Source: Bacteroidota bacterium
GTDB taxonomy: Bacteria; Bacteroidota; Rhodothermia; Balneolales; Balneolaceae
Direction: 5' to 3'
DNA length: 64,000 nucleotides
Assembly: GCA_009909035.1 (NCBI GenBank)
Contig: JAAAOB010000154.1
Span: 1-64,000 of the forward strand
Below, piece after piece: positions 3,955 to 20,437 of this stretch (the stretch's first letter is position 1; each line of letters begins with the position of its first letter). The notes under the pieces were generated by a model, which was given only the letters and a program-made list of their open reading frames with translations, was not told the DNA's origin and did no database searches. The translations under genes and the position numbers were made by a program.

Positions 3955-5049
3955 ATGAAACTACTTCATTGGTTCACTCCACTTCTCTTTATCGTTCTGC
4001 TGGCTTCCTGCAGCGGTGACTACCGGCCCAAATCGATCGGCGCTGTCGATGAAGTCATCGTGGTCATGGATTCAACACAGTGGAACAGCGATACCGCCAT
4101 GGCGATCCGGGAGACATTCGGCGGGCTGATCGAAACCGTACCGACGCCAGAAAATGCCTATGATCTCACCTTCAGAGATTTTAAAAACAACCGCCAGCTT
4201 GAACAGCTGAAAGAGTTTAAAAACGTTATTTTTGCCGGCCCCATCGGCGATAGTACCAACGTCTCACGGTTTATTAACGGGATCCTTTCAGACGAAGTGG
4301 AGGGGCGCGTTCGTGCCGGGGAGAGCTTCGCTTTTCCGCTGCGCGATCAGTGGGTGCGCGATCAGTGGACGCTTATTTTGACCTCAACCTCCGACGAAGC
4401 CCTGGCCGAAAACATTGTGAATTCAGAAGAGGAGCTTGTTGGGCATCTCAGGGAGCGGGAATTTGAACGCCGGAAAGAGAATATCTACAGGCGCGGTGAA
4501 CAGGTGGCGATCTCAGACTCACTTTGGGAGGAGCACGGCTGGAAGGTGCGTATGCAGCACGATTATATCCAGGTGATTGACACCACCGATGCCGTGATGT
4601 TCAGACGCTATCTGCCCGACAACAACCGGTGGATGTGGGCCTGGTGGCAGGACGGCGTAGACAGCGCGGACTTTATCAACCGGGAGTGGATCAACGCAAA
4701 GCGCGATTCACTTATGGAACAACTGGTGCAGGGCGAGCGTGAAGGATCGTACGTCACGACCGACTACCGCCGCCCGCTGGAAATGCGTGAAATCGACCGG
4801 GAGGATCGGTTGATGGGCTTCGAAACGAAGGGGCTCTGGCGAATGACCAACGACTACATGGGCGGACCGTTTGTTCACTTTACCTACTACGATCCGCTTA
4901 CCGATCGCCTGTTTATGGTTGAGTACGCCCAATTTGCCCCCAGCGTAAAAAAGCGACGGTTTGTACGTCAGTTCCAAACCATGGGCCGAACATTTGAGAG
5001 TGATTCTACCTGGAATCAACCGGAGTCATCCGGCAGCACCGCTCCGTAA
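3955..5049 (+). CDS. DUF4837 family lipoprotein
   Basis: A signal peptide with hydrophobic core LLFIVLLASC ends in a lipobox (LASC), so the protein is probably anchored in an envelope membrane. The rest, with VFAGPIGDSTNVS-like and QWTLILTSTSDEALAE segments and a late WRMTNDYMGGPFVHFTYYD, resembles the Bacteroidota family DUF4837, whose role is not known. It is only 26 bases after trpA and may be read through from the trp operon, but nothing in the protein points to tryptophan metabolism. Confidence 0.8.
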   Translation: MKLLHWFTPLLFIVLLASCSGDYRPKSIGAVDEVIVVMDSTQWNSDTAMAIRETFGGLIETVPTPENAYDLTFRDFKNNRQLEQLKEFKNVIFAGPIGDSTNVSRFINGILSDEVEGRVRAGESFAFPLRDQWVRDQWTLILTSTSDEALAENIVNSEEELVGHLREREFERRKENIYRRGEQVAISDSLWEEHGWKVRMQHDYIQVIDTTDAVMFRRYLPDNNRWMWAWWQDGVDSADFINREWINAKRDSLMEQLVQGEREGSYVTTDYRRPLEMREIDREDRLMGFETKGLWRMTNDYMGGPFVHFTYYDPLTDRLFMVEYAQFAPSVKKRRFVRQFQTMGRTFESDSTWNQPESSGSTAP

Positions 5050-5879: not shown

Positions 5880-6447
5880 GAGGTATCGAGCTACCTCGGG
5901 CAGAGCCAGCGAGGTATCAACTAAGAACCTATAACTTTTGGTCCAATATTAAGCTTATTCTGAATTATACTCCTTCGGAGGCTGTAAGGAAATACATAGT
6001 CAAGTATATCAGCCATTTGTTTCTGCCACGAGGACGCAAAGTCACGAAGGTGCACGAAGTGAAATACTATCAATGAAATAACCTTCGTGAAAGCTTTGTG
6101 TCGTCGCGCCTTCGTGGCCCACATAGTGAGTGTTTGTAATGCTTGCTGTTCTATTTTTTCACAGTCTCCTTCGAATGGGCAATGGGAAGTCTCCCCTCGT
6201 TTGTTTTTACCACGAGGACGCAATGTCACGAAGGTGCACGAAGTGAAATACTATCAATGAAATAACCTTCGTGAAATCTTTGTGACGTCGCGCCTTCTTG
6301 GCCCACATAGTGAGTGTTTGTAATGCTTGTTGTTCTTTTTTTCACAGCTGTCGGGATCGCTTCTCCCTTCTCCTGAAGAGATCCCGATGGGAAAAGGGGG
6401 GCTTTTATCTTGTGCGACCCAGAGGGTCGGGGAATTAAACCACTTTA
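5880..6447 (+). repeat. Composite dispersed repeat element, copy B
   Basis: The left block at 5888-5943 has TACCTCGGGCAGAGCCAGCG then AGGTATCA and ATAACTTTTGGTC, forming a TACCTCG/CGAGGTA hairpin. It matches 61389-61446. The right block at 6402-6445 has TTTTATCTTGTGCGACCC then AGAGGGTC and GGGGAATTAAACCAC, matching 61637-61680 and 1865-1904. Between them lie two tandem units (listed separately) and a pyrimidine/purine arm pair near 6360-6400. The element has no plausible coding frame. It looks like a non-autonomous, mosaic mobile or structured repeat. Confidence 0.7.
6021..6347 (+). repeat. Tandem pair of ~140-bp repeats, offset 183-184 bp
   Basis: Unit 1 runs about 6021-6164 and unit 2 about 6205-6347, both from CCACGAGGACGCAA to TTTTTTCACAG with only a few mismatches. 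Each unit contains arms that can fold: CCACGAGGACGC near its start against GCGCCTTCGTGG near its middle, and CACGAAGG against CCTTCGTG. Similar 'CACGAAGG' dispersed repeats are widespread in environmental bacterial genomes (general knowledge). The units sit inside composite element copy B. The short frame that crosses them at 5921-6229 on the minus strand is not a gene. Confidence 0.85.
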
Positions 6448-6786
6448 GATTAAGAACAGAGTGATGTGCCTCTGATGTCCGCCGCGTTGTATCAATGCTG
6501 AAGCTATAACTTATTATTGAAATTAATCGGATCTGTCATTTTTGAGATGTCATAGAAAAATCATCCGCTGAAAGTGCAGCCGCATCTTTACGCGTCTGTT
6601 ACCTCAACCTAACCGCAGCAGGTGCCGCTCCAGCGGTACACCTACCGGATCTGTCAGCGTTGAGTTGTAGTGATTCCTTGATGTGGAATCCTGAAAAAGG
6701 TATAATGGCTTTGCCCCGACGCTCAGAAACCCGGGAACCCGCCGGGCATGTTGTCAGGTCTTGATTGTTGCCATCCCTAACTCAAA
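6448..6786. repeat. Gene-free stretch with short direct repeats and a hairpin
   Basis: No gene is seen. A 19-base direct repeat, CGGATCTGTCA followed by four variable bases and TTGAG, occurs at 6528-6546 and 6646-6664. Just inside the second copy lies an imperfect palindrome, GGTGCCGCT-CC-AGCGGTACACC, at about 6621-6643. The pattern suggests a degenerate small repeat element next to copy B. Confidence 0.5.
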
Positions 6787-16085: not shown

Positions 16086-17666
16086 ATGAACTATCTTGAC
16101 TGGATCGTGGTAACCGTTTATGCTGCCGGGCTTATCTGGCTGAGCTACCATTTAAGCAAAGGGCAGACCAGCGCTTCCGATTACTATCTTGGAGGCAACT
16201 CGTTTAAATGGTGGCAGGTCGGTTTATCGACCATGGCTACCCAGCTGGGAGCTGTCAGCTTTATTTCAGCACCGGCATTTGTGGGTCTTCGGGAGGGTGG
16301 CGGTCTTCAATGGCTGACCTACGAGTTTGCTGTTCCACTCGCTATGATCCTGCTGATTGTTGTGATATTTCCCCCGCTCTACAAATCCGGGGTGATCAGT
16401 ATCTACACCTACCTCGAAAAGCGGTACAACTCCACAACGCGTAAACTGCTCAGCGGGGTTTTCCAGTTCAGCCGTGCATTTGCCGCAGGGATCACCGTCT
16501 ATGCGGTGGCGATCGTACTCGAGGCCGTGTTCGATATTCCGCTCTGGATCAATATTGTCATCACCGGCGTCATTGCGATCATTTACGATTACATGGGCGG
16601 CATCAAAGCGGTCGTCCTGTCGGATGTTATTCAGATGGGGATCTTGTTTATTGGCTTCCTGTTCTGCTGCTATTTTGCCCTCGATCTGCTGGGCGGCTGG
16701 TCTGCTTTTACCGAAAATTTAGATCCCGAACGCCTCACGGCCGTCGATTTTTCCAATACCGGCATTGGATCGGACCAGGAGTTTGGATTTTGGCCAATGG
16801 TTTTGGGCGGATTCTTTCTTTACGCATCATACTACGGCTGTGATCAAAGCCAGGCCCAGAGAATACTCTCTTCAATGAATTTAAAAGATGTCCGTAAAGC
16901 ACTGCTGTTTAACGGGTTTTGCCGCTTTCCAACTGTTCTTTTATACTGCGGAATGGGTCTTTTGATTGGAACACTTGCAATGACAACCCCAACTTTTCTG
17001 GAGCAAATTCCCGAGGGACAGTCGGATTACATGGTTCCCGTGTTTATTGTTGAATACCTTCCCAACGGACTAATTGGTCTGCTGGTAGCGGCGATTATGG
17101 CTGCGGCGATGTCCTCCCTCGATTCAGCCCTCAACTCCCTCAGCGCAGCAACAGTCCAGGATTTCATCCTGCCGGGAAGATCACCAGAAGAGATGACAGA
17201 CGCCAAACAACTCTCCCTCTCGAAAAAATACACGCTGTTTTGGGGTATTATCTGCGTGGTCCTTGCGTTTGCAGCCGGTAATATTGCACCTACCGTCATT
17301 GAAGCGATTAATAAAATCGGGTCGCTGTTTTACGGGCCGATTATTGCCACGTTTGTTTTGGCTATGCTTACCACCCGAATTACAGGCTTTGCTATTAATA
17401 CGGGCATAGTAGCGGGCGTCATCTTCAATTTTTTCCTCTGGATCTTTTTTGAAGACGTTATTTTTTGGTTCTGGTGGAATGCCACCGGCTTTGTTGTCAC
17501 GGTAACGGTAGCGTGGATACTATCTGCGTTGAAAAAAGAGATTCGGGATTCTAAAACCATTGTCTCGCCCGATTTAATTGAGCCCCGCTGGAAAGAGACA
17601 TTTATCCTGGGCAGCTATTTTGCTTTGATTGTGCTCTTCAGCGTTTCTATTGCGTGGTTTGTGTAG
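16086..17666 (+). CDS. Sodium/solute symporter (SSS family), copy 1
   Basis: A multi-helix (about 13-14) transporter of 526 aa. The start LDWIVVTVYAAGLIWLSYHLSKGQ and SASDYYLGGNSFKWWQVGLS are typical of SGLT-like bacterial carriers. IMAAAMSSLDSALNSLSAAT matches the sodium-binding TM8 region. It likely brings a sugar or keto-sugar in with Na+. It lies 180 bases after the dehydrogenase subunit gene and ends just before the tandem hairpin array. Confidence 0.92.
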   Translation: MNYLDWIVVTVYAAGLIWLSYHLSKGQTSASDYYLGGNSFKWWQVGLSTMATQLGAVSFISAPAFVGLREGGGLQWLTYEFAVPLAMILLIVVIFPPLYKSGVISIYTYLEKRYNSTTRKLLSGVFQFSRAFAAGITVYAVAIVLEAVFDIPLWINIVITGVIAIIYDYMGGIKAVVLSDVIQMGILFIGFLFCCYFALDLLGGWSAFTENLDPERLTAVDFSNTGIGSDQEFGFWPMVLGGFFLYASYYGCDQSQAQRILSSMNLKDVRKALLFNGFCRFPTVLLYCGMGLLIGTLAMTTPTFLEQIPEGQSDYMVPVFIVEYLPNGLIGLLVAAIMAAAMSSLDSALNSLSAATVQDFILPGRSPEEMTDAKQLSLSKKYTLFWGIICVVLAFAAGNIAPTVIEAINKIGSLFYGPIIATFVLAMLTTRITGFAINTGIVAGVIFNFFLWIFFEDVIFWFWWNATGFVVTVTVAWILSALKKEIRDSKTIVSPDLIEPRWKETFILGSYFALIVLFSVSIAWFV

Positions 17667-17668
17667 CC

Positions 17669-18278
17669 CCTTCGTCGGACGATTGCCCCGAAGGGATCGC
17701 TTGGCGGGGTTTTTCGTCCGACGAATTACGAAATCCAATGCCCCGCACCTCATCCCGATAACTACACGCTCCTGAACAAATCTCATTGCCACGGTTTACT
17801 CGACAGTCGAAAGAAGCAATCGACTGTCGAGGTCGATGCCTTCGTCGGACGATTGTCTTTTTCGTCCGACGAATTACGAAATCCAATCCCCCCAACCTCA
17901 TCCCAACAGCCCACGCTCCTGAATAAATCTCATTGCCACGGTTTACTCGACAGTCGAAAAATGCAATCGACTGTCGAGGTGGGTCCCTTCGTCGGACGAT
18001 TGTCTTTTTCGTCCGACGAATTACGAAATCCAATGCCCCGCACCTCATCCCGCCAACCACACGCTCCTGAATAAATCATTTGCCAGTGGTTACTCGACAG
18101 TCGAAAGAAGCAATCGACTGTCGAGGTCGATGCCTTCGTCGGACGATTGCTTTTTTCGTCCGACGAATTACGAAATCCAATCCCCCCGCACCTCATAGTG
18201 ATAACCACACGCTCCTGAACAAATCTCATTGCCACGGTTTACTCGACAGTCGAAAGAGGCAATCGACTGTCGAGGTGG
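17669..18278. repeat. Four tandem copies of a 147-bp two-hairpin repeat
   Basis: Units start at about 17670, 17840, 17987 and 18134; spacing is 170 (a ~23-base insert in unit 1), then 147 and 147. Each unit has two perfect 12-bp inverted repeats: TTCGTCGGACGA with TCGTCCGACGAA around a short T-rich loop, and CTCGACAGTCGA with TCGACTGTCGAG. Between them is a conserved ~70-base segment that includes ATTACGAAATCCAAT, CACGCTCCTGAA and ATTGCCACGGTTTACT. Some minus-strand frames are open through the array only because the unit length is a multiple of three. It lies between two convergent genes. Confidence 0.95.
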
Positions 18279-18282
18279 ATTC

Positions 18283-20307
18283 TCAATCCCTCTCAAAAGT
18301 CATCTCATCTTTTCCAACACCGGTGATGGTCAGTGATTTCCAGTCCCGTGGAAGGTCCGTATCAATGCGCACAATTCCGTCATCCGTCAGCTCGATGCCT
18401 GCAAAACCGGCTAAAACCGATTGAAGCATCCCGCCCGCACCAGTTGCAAAATATGGATTTGTACCGCCGGCTACCTCGGCTATGACGCCAAAAGGCGGCA
18501 ATTTATTTGGCTGATATCCTTTTTGAAACAGTTCATACGCCTCCTCGGGATCGCCCAGGCGTGAACTGATGATTGAGTAGACGGAATGGGTCATGGCCGG
18601 CCCCCGGGGATCCACTCTTTGCTGGTAGTACTCCAGGTTTTTTCGCATCTGTTCCGGGTCCGTCACCATATTTAACGGGTAGGTAAGCAGGTTGACATCC
18701 GCCTGTTTAATCATCTCTCCGGTGTATGTGTCATGCTCACGGGTGGTCCCGTCTTCAAATTCCGGGATAGGAATTCGATCTGCAACCTCTGTCCACCTCG
18801 GGTCAGGATCGATCCCGAGAACGGCGGCTGCTTTTGTTGCAAAGCGGAGAGCAGAAATAGCGGTGGCATTGGTAAATGCATTGTTATCCACATTTTCGGC
18901 AAATTCATCGGCTGCTACAACATTGCGGATCTCATAGTTTCCGCTCTCGGTCAGCTCGGCGCGGCTCACCCAGAATTCTGCAATCTGTTGCAGCATTGGA
19001 TAGCCCTCGTCCTCAAGCCATGTTTTATCTTGCGTCACCCTGTAGTAATTCCAGAATGCAATACCGACCACAGCCGTTATGTGGTGCTGAAACGGGCCGG
19101 TAAGTGCCCAGACCGGGGTGGCTTCGCCGCCGGTATCATTGGATTCCCACGGGAACATCACGCCATCAAACCCGTGGCTGAACGCTTTGCTTTTGGCCCC
19201 GCCGATACGATCTGTCCGGTAATCGATTATAGAACGGGCAAGATCCGGCTGCAGCAGGAGCAGAGGGGGATACATCCAGAGTTCCGTATCCCAAAAAACG
19301 TGGCCGTTATAGCCAAGTCCCGAGAGCCCCATGGGTGAGAGGCTTAGCCGCGATCCTTCACGAACAAACGAGTAGAGATGGTAGAGCGCCATACGTACAT
19401 CGAGCTGATCCTGCCGGTTTCCTTCAATGATGATATCACTCTCCCAAAGCTGATCCCACTCGTGCTGGTGGCGCATCAACAGGCGATCGCGCCCCTCAAG
19501 CATCGCAAACACCGTGAGCCGCTCTGCACTGCTGAAGGGATCATCAAAATGCTCGGTGGAAGTTGCAGAACTCACAACAGAAAAACGGTAGGTTTCGCCC
19601 TGTTCAAGCTGTTTCTCCAGGTGCACGCGGTGCATGTTGTGATCCCAGTCTTCGTGAATATACCCGGGCATGTGTTCCTCCTCAAACAGAAAACTGTTCG
19701 ATACGGCAATTGTGTGTTTGCCGGTCGGACTATCAGCAACCGATGAGAACAGCGGTATCTGAACGTGCGGGCGATCAATAACGGCGTAATAATTCCTGAC
19801 ATCCCGCAGATGATTCGGCGCCTCTATCACGCTTGCCGGACGAATGGTAACCTCATCAAGGGCCGTTACCTCCATATCAATCAGACTTGTGAAGGGGAGA
19901 TGCCGCAAGGCCCGCACGCGGTAGGTAACCTCAACTTTTCCCTCCATTTCGAACGTGGTTTCGAAATAGGCGTCTCGCATGTTAAGCGTCTGCCGAACGT
20001 TGGTTATGTTATTGCTTGAAATCCGTTCCCCGTCAACATCCAGGTCCATTCCTGCAAAATTAAATCCGCGAAGAATATTGGAGGTCCGGCCCCGGCCGTA
20101 GTAATCGTAGACACCGTTTAATACCGTGTCGCTTACTTTCAGCGGCTCTGCGGACGACACGATACCTATCATGCCGTTTGCGGCCGTTACCCCGTAGTAG
20201 TTCGACGGGTCTATGGATTCAGCTTCAATCATCCACCCGGTATCCTGTGCCTGGAGGAGTCCGGACGTGGTAAAGAGTAAGAAAAGAAACAGGAGGTATC
20301 TGGTCAT
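18283..20307 (-). CDS. GH65 family glycoside hydrolase, secreted
   Basis: A 674-aa protein with signal peptide MTRYLLFLFLLFTTSGLLQAQ; this Met (20307) is preferred over one 12 codons upstream because it puts the signal first. The (alpha/alpha)6 region has Asp340 in VFWDTELWMYPP, Glu468 in AADEFAENVDNNAFTN and Glu611 in GVIAEVAGG. The spacing of these three matches the triad recalled for the hydrolytic GH65 enzymes PGGHG (Asp301, Glu430, Glu574) and Flavobacterium kojibiose hydrolase. A Glu at the last position, where phosphorylases bind phosphate, favours hydrolysis. Likely substrate: an alpha-glucoside such as kojibiose or a glucosyl-glycerol type compound. Last gene of the symporter-kinase-amylosucrase set. 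Confidence 0.87.
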   Translation of the reverse strand: MTRYLLFLFLLFTTSGLLQAQDTGWMIEAESIDPSNYYGVTAANGMIGIVSSAEPLKVSDTVLNGVYDYYGRGRTSNILRGFNFAGMDLDVDGERISSNNITNVRQTLNMRDAYFETTFEMEGKVEVTYRVRALRHLPFTSLIDMEVTALDEVTIRPASVIEAPNHLRDVRNYYAVIDRPHVQIPLFSSVADSPTGKHTIAVSNSFLFEEEHMPGYIHEDWDHNMHRVHLEKQLEQGETYRFSVVSSATSTEHFDDPFSSAERLTVFAMLEGRDRLLMRHQHEWDQLWESDIIIEGNRQDQLDVRMALYHLYSFVREGSRLSLSPMGLSGLGYNGHVFWDTELWMYPPLLLLQPDLARSIIDYRTDRIGGAKSKAFSHGFDGVMFPWESNDTGGEATPVWALTGPFQHHITAVVGIAFWNYYRVTQDKTWLEDEGYPMLQQIAEFWVSRAELTESGNYEIRNVVAADEFAENVDNNAFTNATAISALRFATKAAAVLGIDPDPRWTEVADRIPIPEFEDGTTREHDTYTGEMIKQADVNLLTYPLNMVTDPEQMRKNLEYYQQRVDPRGPAMTHSVYSIISSRLGDPEEAYELFQKGYQPNKLPPFGVIAEVAGGTNPYFATGAGGMLQSVLAGFAGIELTDDGIVRIDTDLPRDWKSLTITGVGKDEMTFERD

Positions 20308-20437
20308 TGGTTTATGGATTTGGGTTGTGAGAATAGAGACCATGTCTCGGCTGGATCAACATCTGAGTATAATGTAGCACTTAAAAAGAGATTGTATCAA
20401 TTTTTTTCACGATGCAAAGGTCCCTTTCTCCACCTGG

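Follow-up and report, generated by a model that had tools for sequence, protein, structure and literature searches.

In the BIME/REPIN systems of the Gammaproteobacteria, such as the y-z REP pairs of E. coli (PMC8266576), which go with TnpAREP group 2, hairpins in inverse orientation are joined by a linker, occur in tandem in intergenic DNA, and are linked to genes for REP-associated tyrosine transposases (RAYTs), which are HUH proteins of the Y1 type. In Bacteroidetes, the genes of TnpAREP subclass 2.6 are flanked by "atypical secondary structures" that lack GT[AG]G and recur in the genome (Quentin et al. 2018, PMC6006769). Balneola-type bacteria are not mentioned in the main text of that paper. 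Finally, the CGTC-tagged REPs, including dRS3 and RPE-4/RPE-6, have an unpaired CGTC tag, stems of 8-9 bp, and loops of 4-5 nt (Di Nocera et al. 2013, PMC3733652).

Here we describe an array of hairpins from a member of the Balneolaceae. (By the window, we mean the whole 64,000-nt stretch of contig JAAAOB010000154.1 that was analysed.) Because of its architecture, its placement, and its link to a transposase, we identify the array as a REP/BIME system without the canonical GTAG tag, and the closest description is that of the palindromes of TnpAREP subclass 2.6 (PMC6006769). More specifically, we estimate a probability of about 90% that this is a BIME/REPIN-type array of non-autonomous palindromes that were spread in the Balneolaceae by a cognate clade of RAYTs. 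In the literature that we searched, we found no description of REPs in Balneolaceae and nothing on this palindrome in any bacterium.

The array shares with the BIMEs of Gammaproteobacteria the inverse hairpins with a linker, the tandem arrangement, the intergenic location, and the association with RAYTs. Unlike those elements, the array family has no GT[AG]G foot (of 146 copies, just one has this motif next to the stem on one side, and two have it on the other), has a loop of 9 or 31 nt, and has a one-base T.T mismatch. Also, the stems in the window genome are mostly perfect and the RAYT is of a different subclass. The central mismatch, which is present in most copies from relatives, does resemble the bulge of E. 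coli REPs. The CGTC-tagged REPs are similar to the array family in being short palindromes that follow stop codons and occupy convergent gaps, mostly as dimers and sometimes inside genes. However, in the array family the CGTC is paired within the stem, the stem is 11-12 bp, and the loop is 9 nt, so these hairpins do not belong with the CGTC REPs. Furthermore, the CGTC REPs have no known transposase, while the array family has one.

Four inverted hairpin pairs fill a convergent gap

Positions 17671-18274 of the window contain a tandem run of four ~147-bp units, each with a hairpin (H1), a spacer, and a second hairpin (H2) (Table 1). The original prediction of a four-copy array of 147-bp units with perfect 12-bp arms was borne out by a direct search and by TRF (17710-18280, period 147, 3.9 copies, 88% matches). 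The copies are 147-149 bp apart, except that the first start-to-start step is 170 bp, since the loop of the first H1 contains a 22-nt insert. This insert had also been noticed correctly; every other loop in the array is 9 nt. All 16 arms are perfect, and the earlier impression that the arms stay exact while the loops and spacers vary is supported by the counts: 0 of 48 columns in the arms are variable, as compared to 21 of the 89 other gap-free columns (hypergeometric p = 4.5e-5). The hairpin pattern matches the window 14 times and has no matches in any of 100 dinucleotide shuffles.

The two hairpins of each unit had been described as different, but when H2 is read from the minus strand, its consensus is that of H1: C-[CT]TCGNCNGNCGA-TTGNNTTTT-TCGNCNGNCGA[GA]-T. 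Thus, the unit consists of two like REP-like hairpins in inverse orientation. Because the units are 89-95% identical to each other, the tandem growth at this site was fairly recent.

The array exactly fills the intergenic gap between two convergent genes, with its outermost hairpins within a few nucleotides of both stop codons. Orthologues of the right-hand gene lack the array, and synteny is not kept around them, so they do not provide an empty site.

Table 1. Coordinates of the array and its flanking genes in the window
Feature	Position	Strand	Description
Left gene	16086..17666	+	Sodium:solute symporter (PF00474); stop codon 4 nt before unit 1 H1
Unit 1 H1	17671..17725; arms 17671-17682/17714-17725	+	Arms TTCGTCGGACGA/TCGTCCGACGAA, 31-nt loop; DNA fold -19.4 kcal/mol
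Unit 1 H1 loop insert	17688..17709	+	22 nt, CCGAAGGGATCGCTTGGCGGGG; module also in loops of other REP-like hairpins
Unit 1 spacer	17726..17798	.	C-rich, ~73 nt
Unit 1 H2	17799..17831; arms 17799-17810/17820-17831	-	Minus strand CTCGACAGTCGA TTGCTTCTT TCGACTGTCGAG
Unit 2 H1	17841..17873; arms 17841-17852/17862-17873	+	9-nt loop
Unit 2 H2	17946..17978; arms 17946-17957/17967-17978	-	
Unit 3 H1	17988..18020; arms 17988-17999/18009-18020	+	9-nt loop
Unit 3 H2	18093..18125; arms 18093-18104/18114-18125	-	
Unit 4 H1	18135..18167; arms 18135-18146/18156-18167	+	9-nt loop
Unit 4 H2	18242..18274; arms 18242-18253/18263-18274	-	End 8 nt from the convergent gene's stop codon
Other spacers	17874-17945, 18021-18092, 18168-18241		Homologous to unit 1 spacer
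Right gene (convergent)	18283..20343	-	GH65-type glycoside hydrolase (PF03632, PF03636)

The hairpins are dispersed in this genome and across the family

The assembly that contains the window (G000) has 3.8 Mb in 172 contigs and is about 89% complete. Using DNA and covariance-model searches, we found about 40 related hairpins in this genome, spread over about 16 places, most of which are intergenic. REPs and BIMEs in the broad sense are short (20-50 nt), mostly intergenic palindromes with many dispersed copies, and these hairpins agree with that description. They occur as singles, as inverted pairs, and as tandem inverted pairs (on contigs C101, C111, and C147), and inverse pairs with a linker, often in tandem, are found in relatives as well. 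The full pair in G000 consists of a TCGTCGGACGA hairpin, about 68 nt, and an inverse TCGACAGTCGA hairpin, and it has been inserted in either direction. Many of the copies start 3-10 nt past a stop codon. Roughly half of the places are convergent gaps, and there are also unidirectional gaps and one divergent gap (these proportions are approximate, as they rely on simple ORF calls).

The family is not private to one genome: we searched 92 Balneolaceae genomes with a whole-family model and found it in 32 of them. This contradicts the absence from all relatives that would have counted against the original prediction. The hairpin pattern was not matched in viral contigs.

One hairpin of the array's kind lies inside the intact reading frame of an aminotransferase from another relative (G006, L142 ~5009-5037). 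It falls within 23 residues that are absent from one solved relative, which is the sole comparison, and it could be an in-frame insertion.

The hairpins flank a clade of RAYT genes

In two relatives, a gene for a small HUH protein lies within a dense cluster of hairpins (G089:C238 and G105:C83). Both proteins match the whole of the NCBIfam model REP_Tyr_transpos (E = 1.7e-14 and 2.8e-14), although these matches are below the model's curated cut-off. RAYT genes with hairpins to either side, no more than about 250 nt away, are present in at least eight relatives (G089, with the gene at L229 5140-5787, G105, G098, G087, G077, G106, G073, and G086), and another genome (G033) has a RAYT gene with a hairpin on one side. 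The original prediction had offered a structured RNA, a protein-binding array, or a REP-type element acted on by a transposase elsewhere, with TnpA-REP genes as the thing to look for; the third suggestion was the right one, as the same hairpins flank RAYT genes in relatives, though we found no such gene in G000. (An initial search of nine genomes with PF01797 identified 33 Y1 loci, none of them flanked by a hairpin. This was misleading because Pfam does not recognise the cognate clade: a Pfam scan of the hairpin-flanked RAYT proteins gave no match.)

More than 60 Y1-transposase loci outside of this clade are not flanked by the hairpins: none of the 33 PF01797 loci has one, and 30 further loci from other groups that match RAYT profiles have no strong hairpin match nearby. 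Across the 92 genomes, the hairpin is found in 15 of 25 genomes that have the clade and in 17 of 67 that do not (Fisher p = 0.002, uncorrected for kinship). The estimate of how often flanking would arise by chance depends on an assumed hairpin density.

All aligned members of the clade keep the HUH residues, the tyrosine motif YIH[QH]NP, and the serine that comes after it, and the HUH, Y, and S columns are invariant. As in subclass 2.6, the flanked RAYTs have YIHQNP and a pair of serines after the core, and dispersed palindromes without GT[AG]G flank the gene. The distance from HUH to the tyrosine is 79-83 in the closest members, as compared to a reported median of 82 for subclass 2.6 (PMC6006769). 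On the other hand, the NH[LIV]H and WQ motifs that accompany YIH[QN]NP in subclass 2.6 read NHFH or NHYH and LFR or LFQ in the flanked RAYTs. The motifs thus agree only in part, and the assignment of the clade to subclass 2.6 is no more than likely.

Other RAYTs of the same clade (at L255, L262, L264, L265, and L268) are flanked by hairpins of similar build but with other stems, and these often share a core of TC-N-GA around the central mismatch. Judging from these loci, the enzyme and the palindrome may have co-evolved.

In G000 itself, we found no match to the cognate RAYT at a threshold of 1e-8. A profile search identified one divergent RAYT-like gene, which is not flanked by hairpins of the array's type. 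Either this incomplete assembly lacks the cognate RAYT, or the G000 copies are orphans, as the lack of a flanking RAYT would suggest. G000 also has three short Y1 transposase genes from another group (L021, L022, and L023), which are flanked in places by other repeats (such as GTCCCGTAGGGAC and CGTAGGTGCGGCATC) that are unrelated to the array hairpin.

The covariation of the stems points to DNA

We aligned the stems of 146 distinct copies from many genomes. The 11 stem pairs include 1,526 Watson-Crick cells, 8 G-T cells, and 72 cells with other mismatches; because the copies were fitted to a model, these counts lean towards structure. Nevertheless, an ungapped alignment agrees, with 1 G-U cell in 528, and the pairing is lost if the partners are slid by one or more columns. 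Several of the stem pairs use all four Watson-Crick types. So, the arms do not vary freely when more copies are compared; rather, they covary. In 100 of the 146 copies, the stem has a T.T mismatch at its centre, while in G000 the central pair is mostly G-C or A-T (32 of 37).

Because G-T pairs are so scarce, the constraint on the stems looks to be at the level of DNA rather than RNA. The 3' end of groEL is informative: G000 and another genome from the same genus (G003) both have a hairpin at one and the same site, immediately beyond a canonical terminator, and a compensatory exchange of C-G to T-A distinguishes the two copies. The other relatives with a readable groEL 3' end have a terminator-like hairpin there without a palindrome of the array's type. 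Also, a scan of the array against Rfam gave chance matches only, far below the gathering scores. A structured RNA repeat, which would be expected to tolerate G-U pairs or to match a known family, is therefore disfavoured (8 G-T of about 1,600 cells, a groEL hairpin that lies beyond the terminator, and no Rfam match).

These observations also bear on whether the hairpins could instead serve the two convergent genes as transcription terminators, or as RNA structures at their 3' ends, and have been multiplied in tandem between them. The outermost hairpins lie 3-10 nt past the stop codons, each is oriented with the gene that it follows, and our scan of the gap for promoters and terminators found weak signals, with no other strong terminator evident. 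But the run of T is in the loop instead of after the stem, the groEL hairpin comes in addition to a terminator that compared relatives have without it, and there are almost no G-T pairs. Furthermore, copies are also found between co-directional genes as well as in a divergent gap, and the hairpins flank one clade of transposases. We consider this explanation very unlikely, but a secondary use of the hairpins as stabilisers of mRNA 3' ends is possible.

Another idea is that the hairpins are binding sites for a dimeric DNA-binding protein, with each arm being an odd palindrome (TCGWCNGWCGA). Indeed, both types of arm in the window are self-complementary around one central base, and 94% of the left-arm cells pair within the arm. 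However, other copies lose the symmetry within the arm and yet keep the pairing between arms (TCGGCTGGCGA/TCGCCTGCCGA), and the hairpins are at the 3' ends of genes, not at promoters. The loops are 5, 7, 9, or 31 nt, so the spacing of the sites is not kept. This seems even less probable than the terminators. Finally, a chance minisatellite, in which one hairpin pair was locally amplified with no family behind it, would fit with the high identity of the units and their fairly recent growth, but it is refuted by the roughly 40 dispersed copies in G000 and the homologues in 31 other genomes.

How the array might have formed

Returning to the BIME/REPIN reading, hairpin pairs with a conserved spacer would have been amplified in tandem within the convergent intergenic region. 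By analogy to the RAYTs that have been studied (PMC8266576), the cognate RAYT would recognise the single-stranded hairpin on one strand, cut beside it, and carry out strand transfer, so that hairpin pairs are moved or copied. The growth to four units may have been due to replication slippage or to unequal exchange. The steps by which the array formed are inferred, but the dispersed hairpin family, the inverted pairs, the DNA-type covariation, and the linkage to a RAYT clade in other genomes are observed.

This is a family of palindromes without GTAG that is tied to a defined clade of RAYTs in the Balneolaceae. It offers natural pairs of RAYT and hairpin whose stems covary over dozens of genomes, and these could be used to test how this transposase reads a hairpin without GTAG as a guide. 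And because the T.T mismatch is kept in most copies but is mostly replaced by a proper pair in G000, which has no flanking RAYT, these copies allow a direct test of whether mobility requires the mismatch.

A 22-nt module recurs in the loops of unrelated hairpins

The oddest part of the array is the 22-nt insert, as it recurs in hairpins with unrelated stems. With up to one mismatch, this module (CCGAAGGGATCGCTTNGCGG with its flanks) is found in the window, at ten further places in G000, and at six places in G003 (the loci in the two genomes are L283 and L311-L330), and all 17 of these lie within a hairpin loop or what is left of one. The stems around it include the TCGTCGGACGA type, the CCTCCAAGGTTT type, which is next to a different RAYT, and the AACCTCCAAGGTTTT type, which flanks a different RAYT in G003. 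The module could conceivably be a second element nested within REP hairpins, either a mini-element that inserts or a loop that is exchanged, but we think this rather doubtful. If true, then either extruded hairpins would take up a mini-element in their single-stranded loops, or different REP families would swap a loop that several RAYTs read. In other genera, the same loop keeps a similar plan with changed bases.

Other repeats and insertions

The window contains a second tandem repeat at 6016-6347 (period 184, 1.8 copies, 94%), with palindromic stretches of the CACGAAGGTGCACGAAG type. In G003, there are tandem arrays of ~127-bp units with TCATCGGATGA hairpins at the ends of genes (L138, 4788-7033), and one gene there (6023-6634) has its stop codon within a repeat arm. 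On contig C167 of G000 (L007, ~760-1262), a long-loop hairpin is split by a ~500-bp insert whose ends are inverted (CTGACATTACCCAT...ATGGGTAATGTCAG). A 10-nt direct repeat (CGCTTGGCGG) lies on either side of this insert, as in a MITE-like insertion into a REP.
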